64,000 bases of DNA from Pseudanabaena sp. FACHB-2040 (GTDB lineage Bacteria > Cyanobacteriota > Cyanobacteriia > Phormidesmidales > Phormidesmidaceae): the NCBI RefSeq assembly GCF_014696715.1, contig NZ_JACJQO010000013.1, positions 62,001 through 126,000 on the forward strand, in the 5' to 3' direction. Positions 55,132-63,232 of the stretch are shown here, piece by piece. Position 1 is the stretch's first letter. Each line of letters begins with the position of its first letter. The notes under the pieces are model-generated. The model searched no databases. It worked only from the letters and a program-made list of their open reading frames with translations, and was not told where the DNA came from. The position numbers were made by a program, and so were the translations under genes.

Positions 55132-56573
<1,442 letters not shown>

Positions 56574-56858
56574 ATGTTATCTCTGCCATATGTCGAGCCG
56601 TCCGGCTTCCCAGCCGAGACGGCAAGTCCTCTATTGCTTGCTGCGCCAACCCTTCGGGCCGGACACGATCCGCTGCGCCATATTTTGCTGGGGTCACCCG
56701 CTGCGGTGGAGCAGGCGATCAATCGTCTGCATGTTGTGCAATATGCAGAGCAGTTTCGCTGGAGCCGCATTATTCAGGTGCCGCCTACGGGCCTGGTGAT
56801 TTCGCCCCGCCAAGGGGAGGTGATGCGCTACCTAATTTGCGACCCACCGCAAGGTTAG
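56574..56858 (+). CDS. Small conserved cyanobacterial hypothetical protein
   Basis: A 94-residue protein with 'DPLRHILLGSPAAVEQAINR' and 'LHVVQYAEQFRWSRIIQVPP', a pattern I recognise from small cyanobacterial proteins whose role is unknown. A good ribosome site (GGAGGA, about 56561-56566) lies seven bases before the ATG at 56574, which decides this start over the TTG at 56559. A HIP1-built hairpin follows at 56878-56923. Confidence 0.7.
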   Translation: MLSLPYVEPSGFPAETASPLLLAAPTLRAGHDPLRHILLGSPAAVEQAINRLHVVQYAEQFRWSRIIQVPPTGLVISPRQGEVMRYLICDPPQG

Positions 56859-56877
56859 GCTAGGGCTGAATAGAGGG

Positions 56878-56923
56878 GTGCGATCGCAAGCCAGAGTTGA
56901 GGTGAACTGGGTTGCGATCGCGC
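56878..56923 (+). terminator. Hairpin formed by two HIP1 copies
   Basis: GCGATCGCAA (56880-56889) pairs perfectly with TTGCGATCGC (56912-56921); the flanks extend it by two more pairs, one a G-T wobble. The loop is 22 nt. TTTATT follows on the plus strand. It starts 19 nt after the stop of the small gene at 56574-56858, so it is a likely terminator. Confidence 0.65.
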
Positions 56924-56969
56924 CTTTATTGATACGAAAAAATGAAGTTCCAGCATAAGAGCTAGTGGC

Positions 56970-57113
56970 ATGTCAGATAGATTTTGGCAGGTCTACAGTG
57001 CAAAGAAATCTGTGCCACCTGAATCAGATCTAGAGAAAAGCAACATAGCTCAAGCCCTAACACAAGAGAAACTTAGCGAGAACTGTAAAGCAAGTGACAG
57101 CAAATATATATAG
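56970..57113 (+). CDS. Possible 47-residue small protein
   Basis: A short open frame in an otherwise empty region, with a possible Shine-Dalgarno site (AAGAG) eight bases upstream. The product would be charged and helical, with one Trp and one Cys. There is no family match, and chance occurrence is quite possible. Confidence 0.25.
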   Translation: MSDRFWQVYSAKKSVPPESDLEKSNIAQALTQEKLSENCKASDSKYI

Positions 57114-57219
57114 ACAAAGCAAAGATTACTAGGAATTTGGTATGGCCTGATTGCTAAACCGAATGCTTCTGCATTTTGTAGAGGTGTGGTAATCCCTGTT
57201 TTGTATAAGACTTAGAGAA

Positions 57220-58944
57220 ATGACAAATCAGTTCTATAGGGTGTTTACTGGTTCAGCATGCTTGCTTGTGCTGTCACCATTTTTTCTGCCAGCCGCTGCA
57301 CTAGCTGCAACTTTCAAGTTAGAAGATGCCTCCGTAAGAAGTATCAACGATGCCTTTAGTTCAGGTGCATTGTCCTCGGAGAGCTTAACTCAACTTTACT
57401 TAAACCGAATTGATGCGTACGAAGGACAACTCAATAACTTTGCCTACATCAATCCTAATGCTTTGGAAGAAGCAAGATCCCTTGATATAGAACGGCAAAC
57501 CTTTGGGCCACGTAGCCCTTTGCATGGTATTCCTGTGCTTCTGAAAGACAATATTGATACTTTTGATATGCCCACGACGGCGGGTTCTCTTGCCCTTGAA
57601 GGCTCAACTCCATCGGATGATGCCTTTATCACTACGCTCTTAAGAGAGTCTGGAGCAGTCATTTTAGGTAAGGCAAGCCTGACTGAGTATGCTAACTTCC
57701 TAGCCAATGGCATGCCCGCTGGCTACTCGTCGTTAAACGGTTACACCTTCAACCCCTACAACCCATTTCCGCTACCTGAAGGAGATGGCAGACCAGTACT
57801 CTCCCCAGGCGGCTCTAGTGCAGGATCAGCAGCGGCTGTTGCAGCGAATCTGGTTCCCCTTTCCATAGGAACAGAAACTTCGGGCTCTATCCTCAGCCCA
57901 GGCAACCAAAACTCCATTGTTGGCATCAAACCAACCGTTGGCCTGATCAGCCGGGATGGAATTATCCCCATTGCCGCAAGTCAAGATACGGCTGGCCCCT
58001 TCGGCAAAACTGTCGAAGATGTAGCGTACCTCTTAGGCGCTCTCACAGGCGTTGATCCAAGTGATCCTGCAACAGCAGCAAGTGAAGGGCTATTTTTTGA
58101 AGACTACACCCAGTTTCTAGATAAAACGGCTCTCAAGGGTGCTCGCATTGGAATTCCCAAAGAGTTCTTTTGGGAGGGACTTTCGGAAGAGCAGATTGGG
58201 ATCGCTGAAGAAGCCTTAGCTACAATGCAAAGCCTCGGTGCAGAACTTGTATTCGAGGAAATTGAAACAGTTGATGAGCTTTCTAACTTTAGCTCCTCTG
58301 TTCTTTCCTATGAGTTCAAGCGCGACTTGAACGCTTATTTGGCTAGCTTAGGGCCAGATGCTCCTGTCAAAACCCTAGCAGACGTAATCGCATTTAATGA
58401 AGCCAACGCAGAGGTCGCTTTAAAGTACGGACAAGCTCGTGCTCTGGCGGCCGAGGAGAAAGACTTAGCACCAGGAAGCGAGGATACCCTACAGTATTTA
58501 GCCGATAGAGCAACTGATTTACTGTTGGCTAAAGAACAAGGGATCGATGCCTACATCGACACCTACGACCTTGATGCTGTTCTATTCCCGGCTACTCGGG
58601 GAGCTTCTATCGGAGCCAAAGCCGGATATCCAAGCATCATCGTGCCAGGCGGCTACCTAAGTGATGGAACACCCTATGGCATTACCTTCTTAACCAAAGC
58701 TTATGAGGAGCCAACTCTGATCAGCTTTGGATACGCTTATGAGCAGGCTTCCCAAAAGCGGGTTTCTCCATCTCTGTTCCCTGCACTCCCAGGCGAGACA
58801 ATTGACTACGAAAAAGTGCCCGAGCCAGGTTTCATTCCGGCACTCGTGGGAATTGGCACTGTGCTAATAGCAACGAGGAGACTGCGGCGTAAGCAGTTGG
58901 GCTATGCGGTTTGTAACGAGACCGTCAGCGCATCTGACGCTTAG
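57220..58944 (+). CDS. Secreted amidase-signature enzyme with PEP-CTERM tail
   Basis: A 574-residue amidase-family hydrolase with a Sec signal peptide (cleavage after 'AAALAA', about residue 30). The Ser-cisSer-Lys triad is complete: Lys109 ('LLKDNID'), Ser199 ('SPGGSSAGS') and Ser223 ('TETSGSI'). Near the C-terminus, residues 533-536 are 'VPEP', followed by a hydrophobic helix and 'RRLRRK', the pattern of PEP-CTERM sorting to the exosortase; about 16 residues follow it. Substrate unknown (peptide amide, glutamyl-amide or similar). A hairpin terminator lies at 58952-58987. Confidence 0.88.
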   Translation: MTNQFYRVFTGSACLLVLSPFFLPAAALAATFKLEDASVRSINDAFSSGALSSESLTQLYLNRIDAYEGQLNNFAYINPNALEEARSLDIERQTFGPRSPLHGIPVLLKDNIDTFDMPTTAGSLALEGSTPSDDAFITTLLRESGAVILGKASLTEYANFLANGMPAGYSSLNGYTFNPYNPFPLPEGDGRPVLSPGGSSAGSAAAVAANLVPLSIGTETSGSILSPGNQNSIVGIKPTVGLISRDGIIPIAASQDTAGPFGKTVEDVAYLLGALTGVDPSDPATAASEGLFFEDYTQFLDKTALKGARIGIPKEFFWEGLSEEQIGIAEEALATMQSLGAELVFEEIETVDELSNFSSSVLSYEFKRDLNAYLASLGPDAPVKTLADVIAFNEANAEVALKYGQARALAAEEKDLAPGSEDTLQYLADRATDLLLAKEQGIDAYIDTYDLDAVLFPATRGASIGAKAGYPSIIVPGGYLSDGTPYGITFLTKAYEEPTLISFGYAYEQASQKRVSPSLFPALPGETIDYEKVPEPGFIPALVGIGTVLIATRRLRRKQLGYAVCNETVSASDA

Positions 58945-59259
58945 CAGAATCAGTTTGATGCGTTGTGCTAGCGCAACGCATCAAACTCTTACAGAAAAAA
59001 TGCTTTACAACTTAACCTGCACATCCTGCGATCGCAATCCTCAAAGCAGAACAAGCCCTGAGCGATCGCGTCCGATTCATTTCCACCACCCTGCACGAGC
59101 CCCCCAAGAGCCTCGTCCTGAGTTTTGAAGACTGAGCTAAGCCGTTGCAAAATTTTACAAAACTTGCGGCAGAGCTAGTCTGAAATTTATCACTCCGCTG
59201 GGGTACTCTCTCTTATACCCTAAGGAAGACGGCAGACCCCGTCGTCAGGAGCGATCGCA
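58945..59259. other. Intergenic region with terminator and HIP1 copies
   Basis: About 315 nt. It holds the amidase terminator (58952-58987), two HIP1 octamers near 59028 and 59080, and the ribosome site of the next small gene. A 74-codon frame (58904-59128) crosses the terminator and is not supported. Confidence 0.55.
58952..58987 (+). terminator. 14-bp hairpin after the amidase gene
   Basis: AGTTTGATGCGTTG (58952-58965) pairs perfectly with CAACGCATCAAACT (58974-58987), 8-nt loop. It lies 7 nt past the stop codon. CTTAC follows without a long T-run. Confidence 0.75.
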
Positions 59260-59481
59260 ATGAAGCTAGAAAGAATCGGTGATGACATGATTCTGTTTTG
59301 CGGCAACATCCGAGATGTGAAGGATGAAGTTGCGACCGCAGCCCAAGCCGCCAGAGAGGCGGGGGCCAAGTATTTGACGATCTGGCCGACCGATGCGGTT
59401 GCGATCGCAAAGGGACAGCGACCTTTGACAATGGAGGCTAACCTGCCCCAAAAGCTCCGAGACGCCCGCGAGGCGATCTAA
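59260..59481 (+). CDS. Small hypothetical protein
   Basis: A 73-residue soluble protein ('MKLERIGDDMILFCGNIRDV', then a helix with Ala/Glu repeats and 'TIWPTDAVAIAKGQRPL'). A clear ribosome site AGGAG (59247-59251) precedes the ATG at 59260, with a HIP1 octamer between them. No family recognised. It is convergent with the methyltransferase gene, 10 nt away. Confidence 0.6.
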   Translation: MKLERIGDDMILFCGNIRDVKDEVATAAQAAREAGAKYLTIWPTDAVAIAKGQRPLTMEANLPQKLRDAREAI

Positions 59482-59491
59482 AGGTCAGAAA

Positions 59492-60253
59492 TTAAGCGGC
59501 TTGAAGCACATAAAACGAATAGCCGTACGTGTCGCTGTAGTGCCGAAAGATATCCATTTCGGCCTCAACTTCTTGAATGACCGATCCCATCGCCTCATCT
59601 GCGTCTGCTTTGATAAAGGCTATCTTCTCTTTGAGCGGATTGTAGTAGTTCTCCCACCAAGCAGACGCGGGCAGCCGATGGATAGCCAGAACCCTAAAGC
59701 CAGCCGCCACAGCTTTTTCAGAGTTCTCTGCTTCGGTTGAAATGGCCGGGTAGGCATTCGTCCAATAGTTCCAAACTGGTTCGGGAATATCTTTTGAAAA
59801 CCAGCTAATCTCTGATATTACCGCCAGGCCATTGCTAGCCAGCAGTGGCCTCCAAGCCCTCAGTGCGCCAAAAAAAGTCAGGTTGTACGCTGCCCCTTCA
59901 GACCACAAAAGATCGATAGAGGCTGGCGGCCAGTTCAGACTGCCCATATCGCCCTGCACCGTCTGAACCCGATCTCGCAGGCCTCGCGCCTCAGCATGCG
60001 CCTCAAGCTCATCGAGAAAGGCTTGAGAAAAGTCAACGGCACAGACCTTGGCTTTGAACCACTCAATTAGGACAAAGGTTCCGGCCCCAGTACCACTTCC
60101 AAGGTCTGCAATGCGCGGTTTTTGGGGCAATTCTGGCAGCAGCGAAAGGATATGCTTTGAGAAAGCTGCATCCCCTGGCCCTTGACGATCCAAACTCCGG
60201 TGTAGGTCGATCAGCGCAGCAATGTGCTTGTCAGATTCTTTCATGGCTGACAT
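59492..60253 (-). CDS. Class I SAM-dependent methyltransferase
   Basis: A 253-residue methyltransferase of the Rossmann type. Motif I is 'IADLGSGTGAGTFVLIEWF', followed by acidic strand-2 'VCAVDFS' and 'VQGDMGSLNWPPASIDLLWS' (motif II/post-I). The substrate is unknown. The two Met codons at 60253 and 60244 are possible starts. It lies 120 nt downstream of the PAD gene on the same strand and may share its transcript. Confidence 0.87.
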   Translation of the reverse strand: MSAMKESDKHIAALIDLHRSLDRQGPGDAAFSKHILSLLPELPQKPRIADLGSGTGAGTFVLIEWFKAKVCAVDFSQAFLDELEAHAEARGLRDRVQTVQGDMGSLNWPPASIDLLWSEGAAYNLTFFGALRAWRPLLASNGLAVISEISWFSKDIPEPVWNYWTNAYPAISTEAENSEKAVAAGFRVLAIHRLPASAWWENYYNPLKEKIAFIKADADEAMGSVIQEVEAEMDIFRHYSDTYGYSFYVLQAA

Positions 60254-60373
60254 CTTAAAGAAGCATTAGCCATCAGTGTCTACCCAGAGGGGCACCCAGC
60301 GCTAGACTTCGCGCGGTTGTTGCGTTCTCAAAGTTTAATTGGGGCAAAAAACTGAAAAACGAGGCATTAGCAG

Positions 60374-62374
60374 TTAGGGTTGCGCCAGGTATTCTGGCTC
60401 TACCTCCCACCAGTTTTGGGCGAAGGGTTGACGGTTGGCATTAGTGCCACAATGAATTTCTCCACCTTCTCGAAAATAGGGGTCCCAATCATCGATAAAG
60501 TGACAGGCTAAACCCAAAGGCCCCAGAACCCTTTCAACGTAAGCCTCAAACTGGCACTGACCCTCAACCTGGGGGCCGAATGGTTTAGGAATAGCCAGAT
60601 GCTGCTTGAGAACAAGCATGTTGACCATGTTGGGGAAGAAAGCCTCTGCTCGCCCGTCATCGTCGTCATACAGAGCGGGCAGCTCGATAATGTCGTCTTC
60701 CTCTAGCCCCAGCTCTTGTTGCAAAGCCTCTCGATTCCAGTTGATGCATTCCTGGAAGCGCTGATTGTGGCTTGCTAATTCTGAGTTGTCGAGAACGTCT
60801 GCCACGCTGATGTCAGCCGGTTTTTGGTAGAGGCATTTGCCCTGCCGTAATAGGGTCTGGGAATGGCCTTTATCACGTAACTGCTTAAGCAGGTCGTAGC
60901 ACTTGTTAGGGCTAGCAAGAAGCAGCTTGAACCCTTTGCCATCGGGAGCCGGGACGAAGTTCATAAACTCGTCAATATGACCTACGCTCAGCCAATCGGA
61001 GAAGATTTCAAAGGGGGCCTGGATCTTTTGAGCATAGAAAAAGTCCCGCAAAACCTTTAACTTGCGGCGCGGGTCTTCAACCACTTCTGGCCGAGTTCCC
61101 CCAAATATCAGACGACCGAAGGGATACTCTACACCGTTTACGGTTACGGGCGGAGAGACCTCTAGATTGCCGAAGGAGTCTAATTTGGTGACAGGGTGGC
61201 AGCTCTTGCGAATCACGTAGCCGAAGTCGCTGCCGATTAGCTGTCGGTTAGTTAGGTGATCCAATCCACGATCGCGCGGTGAATCTAGCACGACGTGAAT
61301 GAATTTGCCGGGTGCCTGGGCGTATCCAATCTCAATTTCATCGCGCATCCAGGGATCGTCCTTATGGAATTCATAGGGAACCGGATCGATCTGCACGTTA
61401 GCCTGGCTAGCAACCTTTCTTAGATCCTCAATAAATCCTTCGTTTTTTGCCTTAGACAGGCGAGAGACAAAGACTGTGATGGGGTCTAAGGTATTGGGCG
61501 TTACTATCCAGGGGGCAATTCGAAAGACAACGCGATCGCTATGGATAGTTTCCCCGCCTTTGACTAGGTCTAGATAAACCTCGACCAGGCCATCAAAATC
61601 GAAGTCAGGGTAGCTTATTCCCTTGATAGCCAGAAGAATGTCTCGATCGGTATCTCTAATTTTGGCGCGTAATCGGTTTGGGCTAATTAGCTCATAGCCA
61701 GTCTTGGCAAGGTCGTCATAAATGCAGATTCTTTGAGCCGTATCCCTGCTTACTGATAGGTAGACCTCGCAGCCAGAGGGCAAGTCTCTTAAGCCAACTC
61801 TGCGAACAATCATAAAGCTAGAGTCTTTTAGATCCGGTAGTCCCCTTAGCTGTTTATTTGAGTCATACCGACTGTCAGAGTGCACATGGTCACGGTCAGT
61901 ACTGGTAATTAGAATTGCGCCATGACCGCTAGTTCCCCAGCGCCAATCGCCTTTGTGAGGGTTATTATCGTCGACAATTCCATCGCGGTTGGCGTCTACA
62001 TCTAAACAGACTCGCAGACAGGTCAGATCAAGCTGTACCTGGCTCAGTTCATGGCCCGAATCGTCTTGAAACGTGATTTCTAATGATCGATCTTTTAGCC
62101 GGTCGCTAAAGGTTCTTGCTAGCAGAGCAATTTCTGGCAGTTGTGCGAGCGGAACTGCCGTTTGTGTATCAATCTGCTGATTTAGCTCAAGGTCAAAGTA
62201 GAGCTCAATCTCTCCCCAGGTTTTGAAGCTGACAACTGCATCTTCGGTAGGGGCCAGATCTTTTAGGGAAATTTGTAGGGGCTGGCCGACAACTAAAATA
62301 TCCTCATAACTTCTGCTTTTCTCCCGGCTTAGACGAAGCTCGTTTGAAGTATCGAGCTGAAGTAGATTTCTCAT
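60374..62374 (-). CDS. Peptidylarginine deiminase (animal PAD type)
   Basis: Converts protein-bound arginine to citrulline, needing calcium in animals. The 666 residues are close in length to human PAD4 (663) and similar along most of it. Catalytic residues equal those of the animal enzymes: Asp345 ('PWMRDEIEIGY'), His466 and Asp468 ('SVGHIDEFMNFVPAP'), Cys642 ('GEIHCGTNANR'). Substrate-site Arg367 and Arg369 ('DSPRDRGL') and Trp342 are kept. The calcium-binding middle region is recognisable ('DVDANRDGIVDDNNPHKGDW', 'GHGAILITSTDRDHV'). The N-terminal domain is shorter and divergent. A SAM methyltransferase follows. Confidence 0.96.
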   Translation of the reverse strand: MRNLLQLDTSNELRLSREKSRSYEDILVVGQPLQISLKDLAPTEDAVVSFKTWGEIELYFDLELNQQIDTQTAVPLAQLPEIALLARTFSDRLKDRSLEITFQDDSGHELSQVQLDLTCLRVCLDVDANRDGIVDDNNPHKGDWRWGTSGHGAILITSTDRDHVHSDSRYDSNKQLRGLPDLKDSSFMIVRRVGLRDLPSGCEVYLSVSRDTAQRICIYDDLAKTGYELISPNRLRAKIRDTDRDILLAIKGISYPDFDFDGLVEVYLDLVKGGETIHSDRVVFRIAPWIVTPNTLDPITVFVSRLSKAKNEGFIEDLRKVASQANVQIDPVPYEFHKDDPWMRDEIEIGYAQAPGKFIHVVLDSPRDRGLDHLTNRQLIGSDFGYVIRKSCHPVTKLDSFGNLEVSPPVTVNGVEYPFGRLIFGGTRPEVVEDPRRKLKVLRDFFYAQKIQAPFEIFSDWLSVGHIDEFMNFVPAPDGKGFKLLLASPNKCYDLLKQLRDKGHSQTLLRQGKCLYQKPADISVADVLDNSELASHNQRFQECINWNREALQQELGLEEDDIIELPALYDDDDGRAEAFFPNMVNMLVLKQHLAIPKPFGPQVEGQCQFEAYVERVLGPLGLACHFIDDWDPYFREGGEIHCGTNANRQPFAQNWWEVEPEYLAQP

Positions 62375-62460
62375 CAGTTGTGGCCATCGCCTATTGCACC
62401 TTTTCTAGGGTCTCATGCCTGATTTTGCAGGTATATCCTCCCTAGTAGAGAGAGCGGCTA

Positions 62461-63222
62461 CTAATCTTGTTCGACCCAGCGAGGCACGTAGCGCCAGGCT
62501 TCGCGCAGCTCGTCGCGGCTGTGGCGGTACTCCGGCAGCTTTTCGCCCACCAGCCGCCAGAAGTTGCGGGAGTGGTCCATGTGAATGGTGTGGCAGAGTT
62601 CGTGGACAAAGACGTAGTGCACCAGCGGCGGCGGCAGAAACAGCAGCTTGTAGTTGAGGCTGATGTTTTTATCGGTAGAGCAGCTGGCCCAGCGGGTTTT
62701 TTGGCCCCGCACTGAGATGCGGCTAAAGGGCAGGTTAATGACAAAGCTCAGCTCTCGCAGCCAGGGGGCGAACTCGGCGCGGGCTTTGCGGGTGAGCCAC
62801 TGGCGCAGTAGGTCACTACAAAGTGCGGGGTCGTCTACGGGGCCTTTGAGGGTGAGGGTGAGGGGGGCGGTTTGGGTCAGCGTGAGCTGGTTGCGAAGGG
62901 TCGATTGATAGAGGATATGCCAGGTTTCGTGGCGCGATCGCAACTCAATCGTGCTGGGCTTTTCGTCAAAATGGTCGGGCTCTAGGGCAATTTGCTGGCC
63001 CTGTACACGCTGCACCGTTTTGAGAATCCACTCGCGCCGTCGCTGGATAATGTCGGGCACCCGCTTGGGGTCGAAGCCTTGGGGCACGACAACTTCGACC
63101 GCGCCCTGCAGCGAAATTTTAATCGAGACATGGCGGGCGCGGGCGCTCTCGCGAATTTGATAATCAGGCAGCGCCTGGGGGCGGGCAGAAAATAGGTTTA
63201 GCTGCTCTGTAGAGTCAGCCAT
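62461..63222 (-). CDS. YgjP-like (M48/DUF45) zinc metallopeptidase
   Basis: A 253-residue metal-dependent hydrolase of the YgjP/WLM-type M48 group. The zinc motif HExxH reads 'HELCHTIHMDHS', with a further Glu downstream ('LVGEKLPEYR'). The N-terminal 'YQIRESARARHVSIKISLQG' and 'VPQGFDPKRVPDIIQRRREW' are family features. The start is the ATG at 63222, or GTG at 63231, one base from the end of the nudix gene region. It lies in the same direction as and just downstream of the NUDIX gene. Confidence 0.88.
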   Translation of the reverse strand: MADSTEQLNLFSARPQALPDYQIRESARARHVSIKISLQGAVEVVVPQGFDPKRVPDIIQRRREWILKTVQRVQGQQIALEPDHFDEKPSTIELRSRHETWHILYQSTLRNQLTLTQTAPLTLTLKGPVDDPALCSDLLRQWLTRKARAEFAPWLRELSFVINLPFSRISVRGQKTRWASCSTDKNISLNYKLLFLPPPLVHYVFVHELCHTIHMDHSRNFWRLVGEKLPEYRHSRDELREAWRYVPRWVEQD

Positions 63223-63232
63223 AGGCAGCACG

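Follow-up and report, generated by a model that had tools for sequence, protein, structure and literature searches.

We report that the peptidylarginine deiminase (PADI) gene in the window, i.e., in the whole analysed stretch of 64,000 nucleotides of contig NZ_JACJQO010000013.1 of Pseudanabaena sp. FACHB-2040, adds a member to an enzyme family that is already known, the animal/cyanobacterial three-domain PADIs, and that it belongs to a clade of 20 intact sequences (the Arg clade, window PADI included) having arginine at the position of the glutamine ligand of calcium site 1 (Ca1). Based on the evidence laid out below, we think it probable, if short of assured, that the gene encodes an active, horizontally acquired PADI of this derived subclade, with eroded Ca3 and Ca5 sites and altered calcium control. 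It is noted that a PADI in a cyanobacterium as such is already known, because PADIs have been published in 11% of cyanobacteria; the statement made in an earlier reading of the letters alone (the sequence-only reading), that these enzymes are known mainly in vertebrates, understates the published occurrence, with carriers making up about 11% of the cyanobacteria, 2.8% of the actinobacteria and 16% of the fungi (PMC8826395, table 1). The change of the Ca1 ligand in this subclade is apparently undescribed.

It was shown by Cummings et al. 2021 (PMC8826395) that the three-domain PADI occurs in the SPM/NX cyanobacteria and in animals, and a cyanobacteria-to-animal transfer was argued; in the same work no species had both PADI types, the cyanobacterial gene tree mirrored the species tree, and the PADI of Cyanothece sp. 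8801 was active, citrullinated protein arginine and was strictly Ca2+-dependent. The features of the window on which our analysis draws are collected in Table 1.

Table 1. Features of the window (positions are those of the 64,000-nucleotide stretch; residue numbers are those of the window PADI unless another protein is named)
Feature	Position	Strand	Evidence
Three-domain PADI gene, 666 aa: PAD_N-like 1-119, PAD_M 121-271, PAD_C 277-657	60374..62374	-	ORF, Pfam, AlphaFold model
Ca6-type loop, residues 127-135: D127, N129, D131, D135	61970..61996	-	alignment
Ca3/Ca4/Ca5 loop, residues 158-186: S158 (PAD4 N153), D160, D162, N173 (PAD4 D168), D181, D184	61817..61903	-	alignment; PMC3559651
Block W342-M343-R344-D345-E346-I347; Arg344 at Ca1 Gln position (PAD4 Q349, PAD2 Q350), Asp345 catalytic	61334..61351	-	alignment
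His466-Ile467-Asp468 codons (catalytic; PAD4 H471, D473)	60971..60979	-	alignment
Gly637 codon; Arg in 9/9 readable Gln-type three-domain cyanobacterial PADIs, Gly in 21/21 Arg-type	60464..60466	-	alignment
Catalytic Cys642 codon (PAD4 C645)	60449..60451	-	alignment; position computed from ORF start 62374
Insertion of about 6.2 kb between tocopherol cyclase and YgjP	56233..62460		empty sites in G020, G008, G012
Tocopherol cyclase, left edge of insertion site	55132..56232	-	Pfam; empty sites
99-aa protein of dispersed family	56559-56858	+	several 93-aa relatives in same genome, ~68% DNA identity
Amidase inside inserted segment	57220..58944	+	Pfam
SAM-dependent methyltransferase, directly downstream of PADI, 120-bp gap	59492..60253	-	Pfam; neighbour comparison
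YgjP-like metallopeptidase, right edge of insertion site	62461..63231	-	Pfam; empty sites

The PADI reading frame, which runs on the minus strand from the ATG at 62374 to the stop at 60376-60374 without internal stops, is intact where the sequence-only reading had placed it. Pfam matches the protein with PAD (E = 7.2e-151, residues 277-657) and PAD_M (E = 2.2e-39, residues 121-271), among proteins of solved structure human PAD2, PAD3 and PAD4 come closest (E = 1e-152 to 1e-137), and the identity is 43.6% to human PAD2 (560 positions), 38.2% to PAD4 and 37.4% to PAD1, the human PAD1 and PAD4 sequences having been checked against PDB chains. The AlphaFold model (mean pLDDT 84.3) can be superposed on human PAD4 from residue 19 to residue 660 (Z 53, rmsd 3.0 A), and in all the window PADI has in common with human PAD2 and PAD4 the fold over 19-660 (Z 43-53), the catalytic tetrad and 38-44% identity. 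The close likeness to PAD4 that had been claimed is thus real, and the two blocks quoted for it, DSFGNLEVSPPVTV and EAFFPNMVNMLVL, are both found in the protein. In the alignment the catalytic Asp345, His466, Asp468 and Cys642 are all present and correspond exactly, as had been said, to PAD4 D350, H471, D473 and C645; for the substrate arginines, also said to be present, R367 and R369 correspond to PAD4 R372 and R374, while PAD4 R639 has no exact counterpart in the loop before Cys642 (YFREGGEIHC). The gene is a catalytically complete animal-type PADI in a cyanobacterium, related, as had been proposed, to the published transfer story (PMC8826395).

The N-terminus had been thought shortened; it is of full length (666 aa vs 663 in PAD4), with residue 19 of the model pairing with PAD4 residue 11 and the alignment to PAD1 starting at residue 3. 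Pfam gave no match to PAD_N in the window PADI, a miss that is general for cyanobacterial PADIs (PMC8826395). As judged from the model, a PAD_N-like domain is present although missed by Pfam, because the model aligns with PAD4 over residues 19-660; when profiles were compared, residues 1-119 matched human PAD_N with E = 0.006 (control segments 0.16-0.43). The protein begins with MRNLLQLDTSNELRLSREKS, has no hydrophobic leader and is soluble, without signal peptide. Concerning its class, only PAD and PAD_M were matched in Pfam and no PPAD/agmatine deiminase family, which sets it apart from the Porphyromonas-type PPAD; nor does it have the features of the two-domain (fungal/actinobacterial) PADIs, namely a missing PAD_N and Thr and Gly-type residues in the Ca2 motif. 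The two-domain PADIs of other cyanobacteria and of actinobacteria have the PAD_C catalytic domain in common with it (24-28% identical), but they are without the PAD_N-like region, have another Ca2 motif and, in many cases, a hydrophobic signal-like start. PAD_C, PAD_M, PAD_N, the catalytic residues, the Ca2 and Ca4 ligands with the switch Asp, and the grouping in the tree are all those of the three-domain 'clade Ai' PADIs.

We turn to the calcium sites, with the ligands assigned from PMC3559651, PMC5445078 and PMC13023937. At Ca1 the window PADI has Arg344 instead of the Gln ligand of the human PAD2/PAD4-type switch, so that it is not filed as a PAD2/PAD4-type regulated enzyme. The replacement of Gln by Arg is a single change on the PADI tree. 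Gln is the residue in the outgroup two-domain PADIs, in humans and in the cyanobacterial PADIs that branch early, so that, on the sequences compared, Gln is the ancestral state and Arg344 the derived one; the calcium-site traits (Arg344 and the lost Ca5 ligands), which had been thought to bear on the ancestral enzyme, are thus derived. Five positions (Tyr59, Pro331, Arg344, Ala594 and Gly637) are fixed in the 20-member clade and absent from humans and from the other cyanobacterial three-domain PADIs. Among them, Gly637 is the site of a lost Arg five residues before the catalytic Cys, and the pairing of the two positions is without exception, with Gln and Arg637 in 9 cyanobacterial sequences and Arg344 and Gly637 in 21. 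In PAD2, Ca1 and Ca6 are permanently occupied, activation fills Ca3-5 first and Ca2 afterwards, and in the inactive enzyme the active site is plugged by R347 (PMC8599989); the position of PAD2 R347 is Pro341 in the window PADI. For PAD2 Q350A crystal structures exist (4n2k/4n2l), and among the papers listed by a literature search for its kinetics none names the mutant.

The Arg type of the window PADI is found in the PADIs of Calothrix, Chlorogloeopsis, Nostocales LEGE 11386 and Leptolyngbya FACHB-60 (L009-L017), which are 69-77% identical to the window PADI and all Arg344/Gly637-type, but which lie in other gene neighbourhoods and in some cases keep the Ca5 ligands. The Cyanothece 8801 cyanoPADI is 53% identical and agrees with the window PADI in its three domains, its length, its catalytic residues and its Ca2 ligands. 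It differs in that Ca1 is Gln-type, that Arg occupies the positions of both Gly637 and Pro341, and that the Ca3/Ca5 ligands are kept. Our Gln-type reference genome (G177) was identified by two small contigs, which match the plasmids NC_011721.1 and NC_011727.1 of Rippkaea orientalis PCC 8801 at 100%; by established synonymy this is the strain formerly called Cyanothece sp. 8801, from which the published enzyme came. As the published Ca2+ dependence was measured on a Gln-type member, it cannot simply be assumed for the Arg clade.

Concerning the remaining sites, the window PADI retains the Ca2 ligands (E346, D364, D368), all four Ca4 ligands (D160, D162, D184 and the switch Asp D383, which is PAD4 D388 and PAD2 D389) and the EF-hand-like Ca6 loop. 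The human PAD2/PAD4-type ligands of Ca3 and Ca5 are incomplete: besides Gln to Arg344 at Ca1, the window PADI differs from human PAD2/PAD4 by Asn153 to Ser158 at Ca3 and by Asp168 to Asn173 and Glu252 to Lys251 at Ca5, where the Ca3/Ca5 loop alignment is gapped and uncertain at about residues 163-173 and the model confidence is low at 163-173. On the tree, the Ca3-5 ligand columns underwent 27 changes in the Arg clade (tree length 3.0) vs 2 in the human plus Gln-type part (4.9); the Arg-clade mean of the 191 other equally conserved columns was 0.64 changes (Mann-Whitney p = 5e-5 vs Ca3-5), the comparison with other conserved D/E/N columns gave p = 2e-4, and the nine catalytic, Ca1 and Ca2 columns tested had no changes in the Arg clade, these tests being not fully independent of the choice of the clade, which was spotted in the alignment before testing. 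Close PADI pairs have dN/dS of about 0.1-0.2, i.e., purifying selection. The erosion goes further in most of the Leptolyngbya-type relatives, which differ from the window PADI in being also without the Ca4 switch Asp, four having it replaced (by Arg in G458, G459 and G437, and by Gln in DLM2.Bin27).

These changes could also belong to an ordinary Ca2+-dependent PADI, in which Arg344 is accommodated, Ca1 is bound via Glu348, Glu405 and backbone oxygens, and the regulation is like that of Cyanothece 8801. The retention in the window PADI of all the Ca2 and Ca4 ligands, of the switch Asp D383 and of the Ca6 loop is consistent with this account, and on these ligands full calcium dependence is possible; moreover, Ca5 is dispensable in PAD4 (PMC3559651), and Chlorogloeopsis fritschii, Arg-type here, is among the sequences behind the statement 'calcium site 1 conserved' in PMC8826395. 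By contrast, a positive side chain has replaced a neutral oxygen ligand, coupled to the loss of the Arg in the active-site loop, the significant Ca3/Ca5 erosion is confined to the Arg clade, and Ser stands at the position of PAD4 N153, where Ala costs 98% of kcat (PMC3559651). We thus regard the ordinary enzyme as a doubtful explanation, though one to be taken seriously.

It is noted that the Ca1 and Ca3 changes resemble PAD4 mutants of low activity, the Q349A/E353A/E411A triple mutation of Ca1 leaving 0.1% activity (PMC5445078) and N153A leaving 2% of kcat (PMC3559651), a point against altered control, as the window enzyme could simply be poor. Taken to the extreme, the same resemblance leads to a pseudoenzyme like PADI6, the natural inactive member of the family and named so in the PDB, in which the fold is kept, the activity is lost via calcium-site decay and the protein serves, if anything, for binding; broken PADI copies in two genomes (G043, G649) are also in line with it. 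If this were true, however, the catalytic residues would be expected to be lost first, and the catalytic Cys, His, Asp and Asp and all the Ca2 ligands are invariant in 20/20 clade members, with synonymous changes predominating. The pseudoenzyme is therefore in our opinion improbable.

Our prediction is that the window enzyme is active as a deiminase and that its calcium control is altered and probably reduced. According to this reading, protein-bound arginine would be converted to citrulline by the standard Cys642/His466/Asp345/Asp468 chemistry, as the residues and the fold suggest. The PADI entered the Leptolyngbya-type lineage within the 6.2-kb segment between YgjP and tocopherol cyclase, as the empty sites and the tree conflict described below show; in its subclade, as the sequences show, the Ca1 Gln changed to Arg and Ca3/Ca5 then eroded, with the Ca2 and catalytic residues frozen. 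Arg344 most likely stands in partly for the Ca1 ion, pairing with Glu348/Glu405, which would explain both the invariant acidic partners at Ca1 and the permitted decay of Ca3/Ca5. Activity would then require fewer Ca2+ ions or less Ca2+, and the calcium control would differ from that of the human PADs and of the tested Cyanothece 8801 enzyme. A stronger form, a 'wired-in cation' lineage, is put forward tentatively and is less than likely: here Arg344 would replace the permanent Ca1 ion, Arg637 would be lost, and the enzyme would be freed from the Ca3-Ca5 switch, which would then decay.

The PADI tree places the window PADI with the cyanobacterial three-domain and animal PADIs, apart from the two-domain ones (100/100 and 100/99); a group of human PADs and the Arg clade is rejected (AU p = 0.0018). 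The clade that holds the window PADI is nested deep among Cyanobacteriales PADIs, and humans branch outside all the cyanobacterial three-domain PADIs or near their base, with long branches joining the outgroups and the human rows, and with the animals of this tree being human sequences only. It might be supposed, as the sequence-only reading implied, that the window PADI is a direct remnant of the line from which animals received their enzyme; its general likeness to human PADs and its three-domain layout speak for this. With the rejected grouping, the position of humans, the ancestral Gln and derived Arg, and the insertion of the gene in the window's lineage all against it, this idea is very improbable, and the claim that the window copy sheds light on the ancestor of the animal enzyme is not supported. 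Nor is there support for the suggestion that the copy reveals what was missing in the ancestral enzyme, since it sits in a derived clade and was inserted.

The host is cyanobacterial, as had been read from the sequence: in the rpoB tree the window genome (G000) falls together with two named members of its order, Leptolyngbya sp. FACHB-60 and Leptolyngbya sp. DLM2.Bin27, and the order stays together, away from the Nostocales-type and Rippkaea groups. The PADI tree is different. The six PADIs of the window's order form with those of G498 and G046, from another order, an 8-row clade (100/100), and the AU test rejects (p = 3.7e-5) the topology expected under vertical descent, in which the other cyanobacterial three-domain PADIs stand apart from those of the window's order. 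The test does not reject the six as a monophyletic group (p = 0.057), so that the order may have received the gene once or more than once. At the locus itself, nothing separates tocopherol cyclase from YgjP in three PADI-less relatives, G020 (where NUDIX is also in place), G008 and G012, and the insertion in the window holds a 99-aa repeat-family gene, the amidase, the methyltransferase and the PADI. The empty sites together with the conflict between the gene tree and vertical descent show that the window gene reached its lineage by horizontal transfer via insertion. The GC3 of the PADI gene (0.52 vs 0.64-0.74 in the flanking genes) is consistent with transfer, not decisive.

Around the gene, the methyltransferase is not conserved next to PADI at other PADI loci, PADI gene neighbourhoods differ between lineages, and an all-against-all comparison of about 8-kb flanks at 25 three-domain loci gave no conserved neighbour beyond close relatives as a clue to the substrate. 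No RNA family was found in the PADI region. Carriage by a mobile element or plasmid was rejected, with no phage matches and with plasmid matches to four actinobacterial records, all below 31% identity. Likewise, the repeated stretch 56361-56840 was considered as a transposon remnant and rejected, as it belongs to a small multi-copy protein family with the motif RHILxGS...YAEQFxWS...GEVxRYLI and with no Pfam or NCBIfam matches. The amidase starts with a leader and ends in a PEP-CTERM-like tail, VPEPGFIPALVGIGTVLIATRRLRRK; judging from these ends, it is probably exported or surface-anchored.

Any PADI match was found in 25/386 genomes of the phylum-wide sample, and the three-domain PADI in 6/65 sampled genomes of the window's order; the sister genome G001 (same genus), an incomplete assembly (78% complete), gave no PADI matches and for its incompleteness is not counted as proof. 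Two genomes of one family (G513 and G634, f30) group with Rippkaea by rpoB, the PADI of G513 being Arg-type and nested in the derived clade and the partial copy of G634 being Gln-type, which is a further sign of PADI transfer between cyanobacterial lineages. Broken three-domain copies (L027 in G043, L102 in G649) suggest frequent loss of a dispensable gene; the PADI is split in Calothrix rhizosoleniae (L018/L019) and fragmentary in Calothrix sp. NIES-4105 (L020), where assembly effects are possible. PADI gives the impression of a stand-alone gene with frequent gain and loss. Note also that G534 (L135/L147) and G642 (C68, C168), of family f29, have a three-domain PADI and in addition a long divergent PAD-domain protein of about 1000-1100 aa, which may be a third PADI type. 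In G003, of the window genome's family, a 1129-aa protein (L146:6827-10213) has, besides a divergent PAD domain, one of the ubiquitin carboxyl-terminal hydrolase type, so that a cyanobacterium has here a eukaryote-like domain pairing.

For citrullination biology and for the design of drugs, the calcium gating of PADIs is a central question, because human PADs require more calcium than is normal in cells. The Arg clade is a ready-made comparison set for it, in which the ligand studied in PAD2 Q350A is changed, the regulatory sites are relaxed and the active site is frozen, and a single tested cyanobacterial enzyme cannot represent all the cyanobacterial PADIs. The three-domain PADIs move between cyanobacterial orders, and this bears on the published argument that they are SPM/NX-only and follow the species tree (PMC8826395). 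If the wired-in cation is true, cyanobacteria would present an evolutionary series in which one catalytic core serves protein citrullination that is fully calcium-gated at one end and weakly or not calcium-gated at the other. The subclade makes the long-standing question of how calcium gates the PADs testable.
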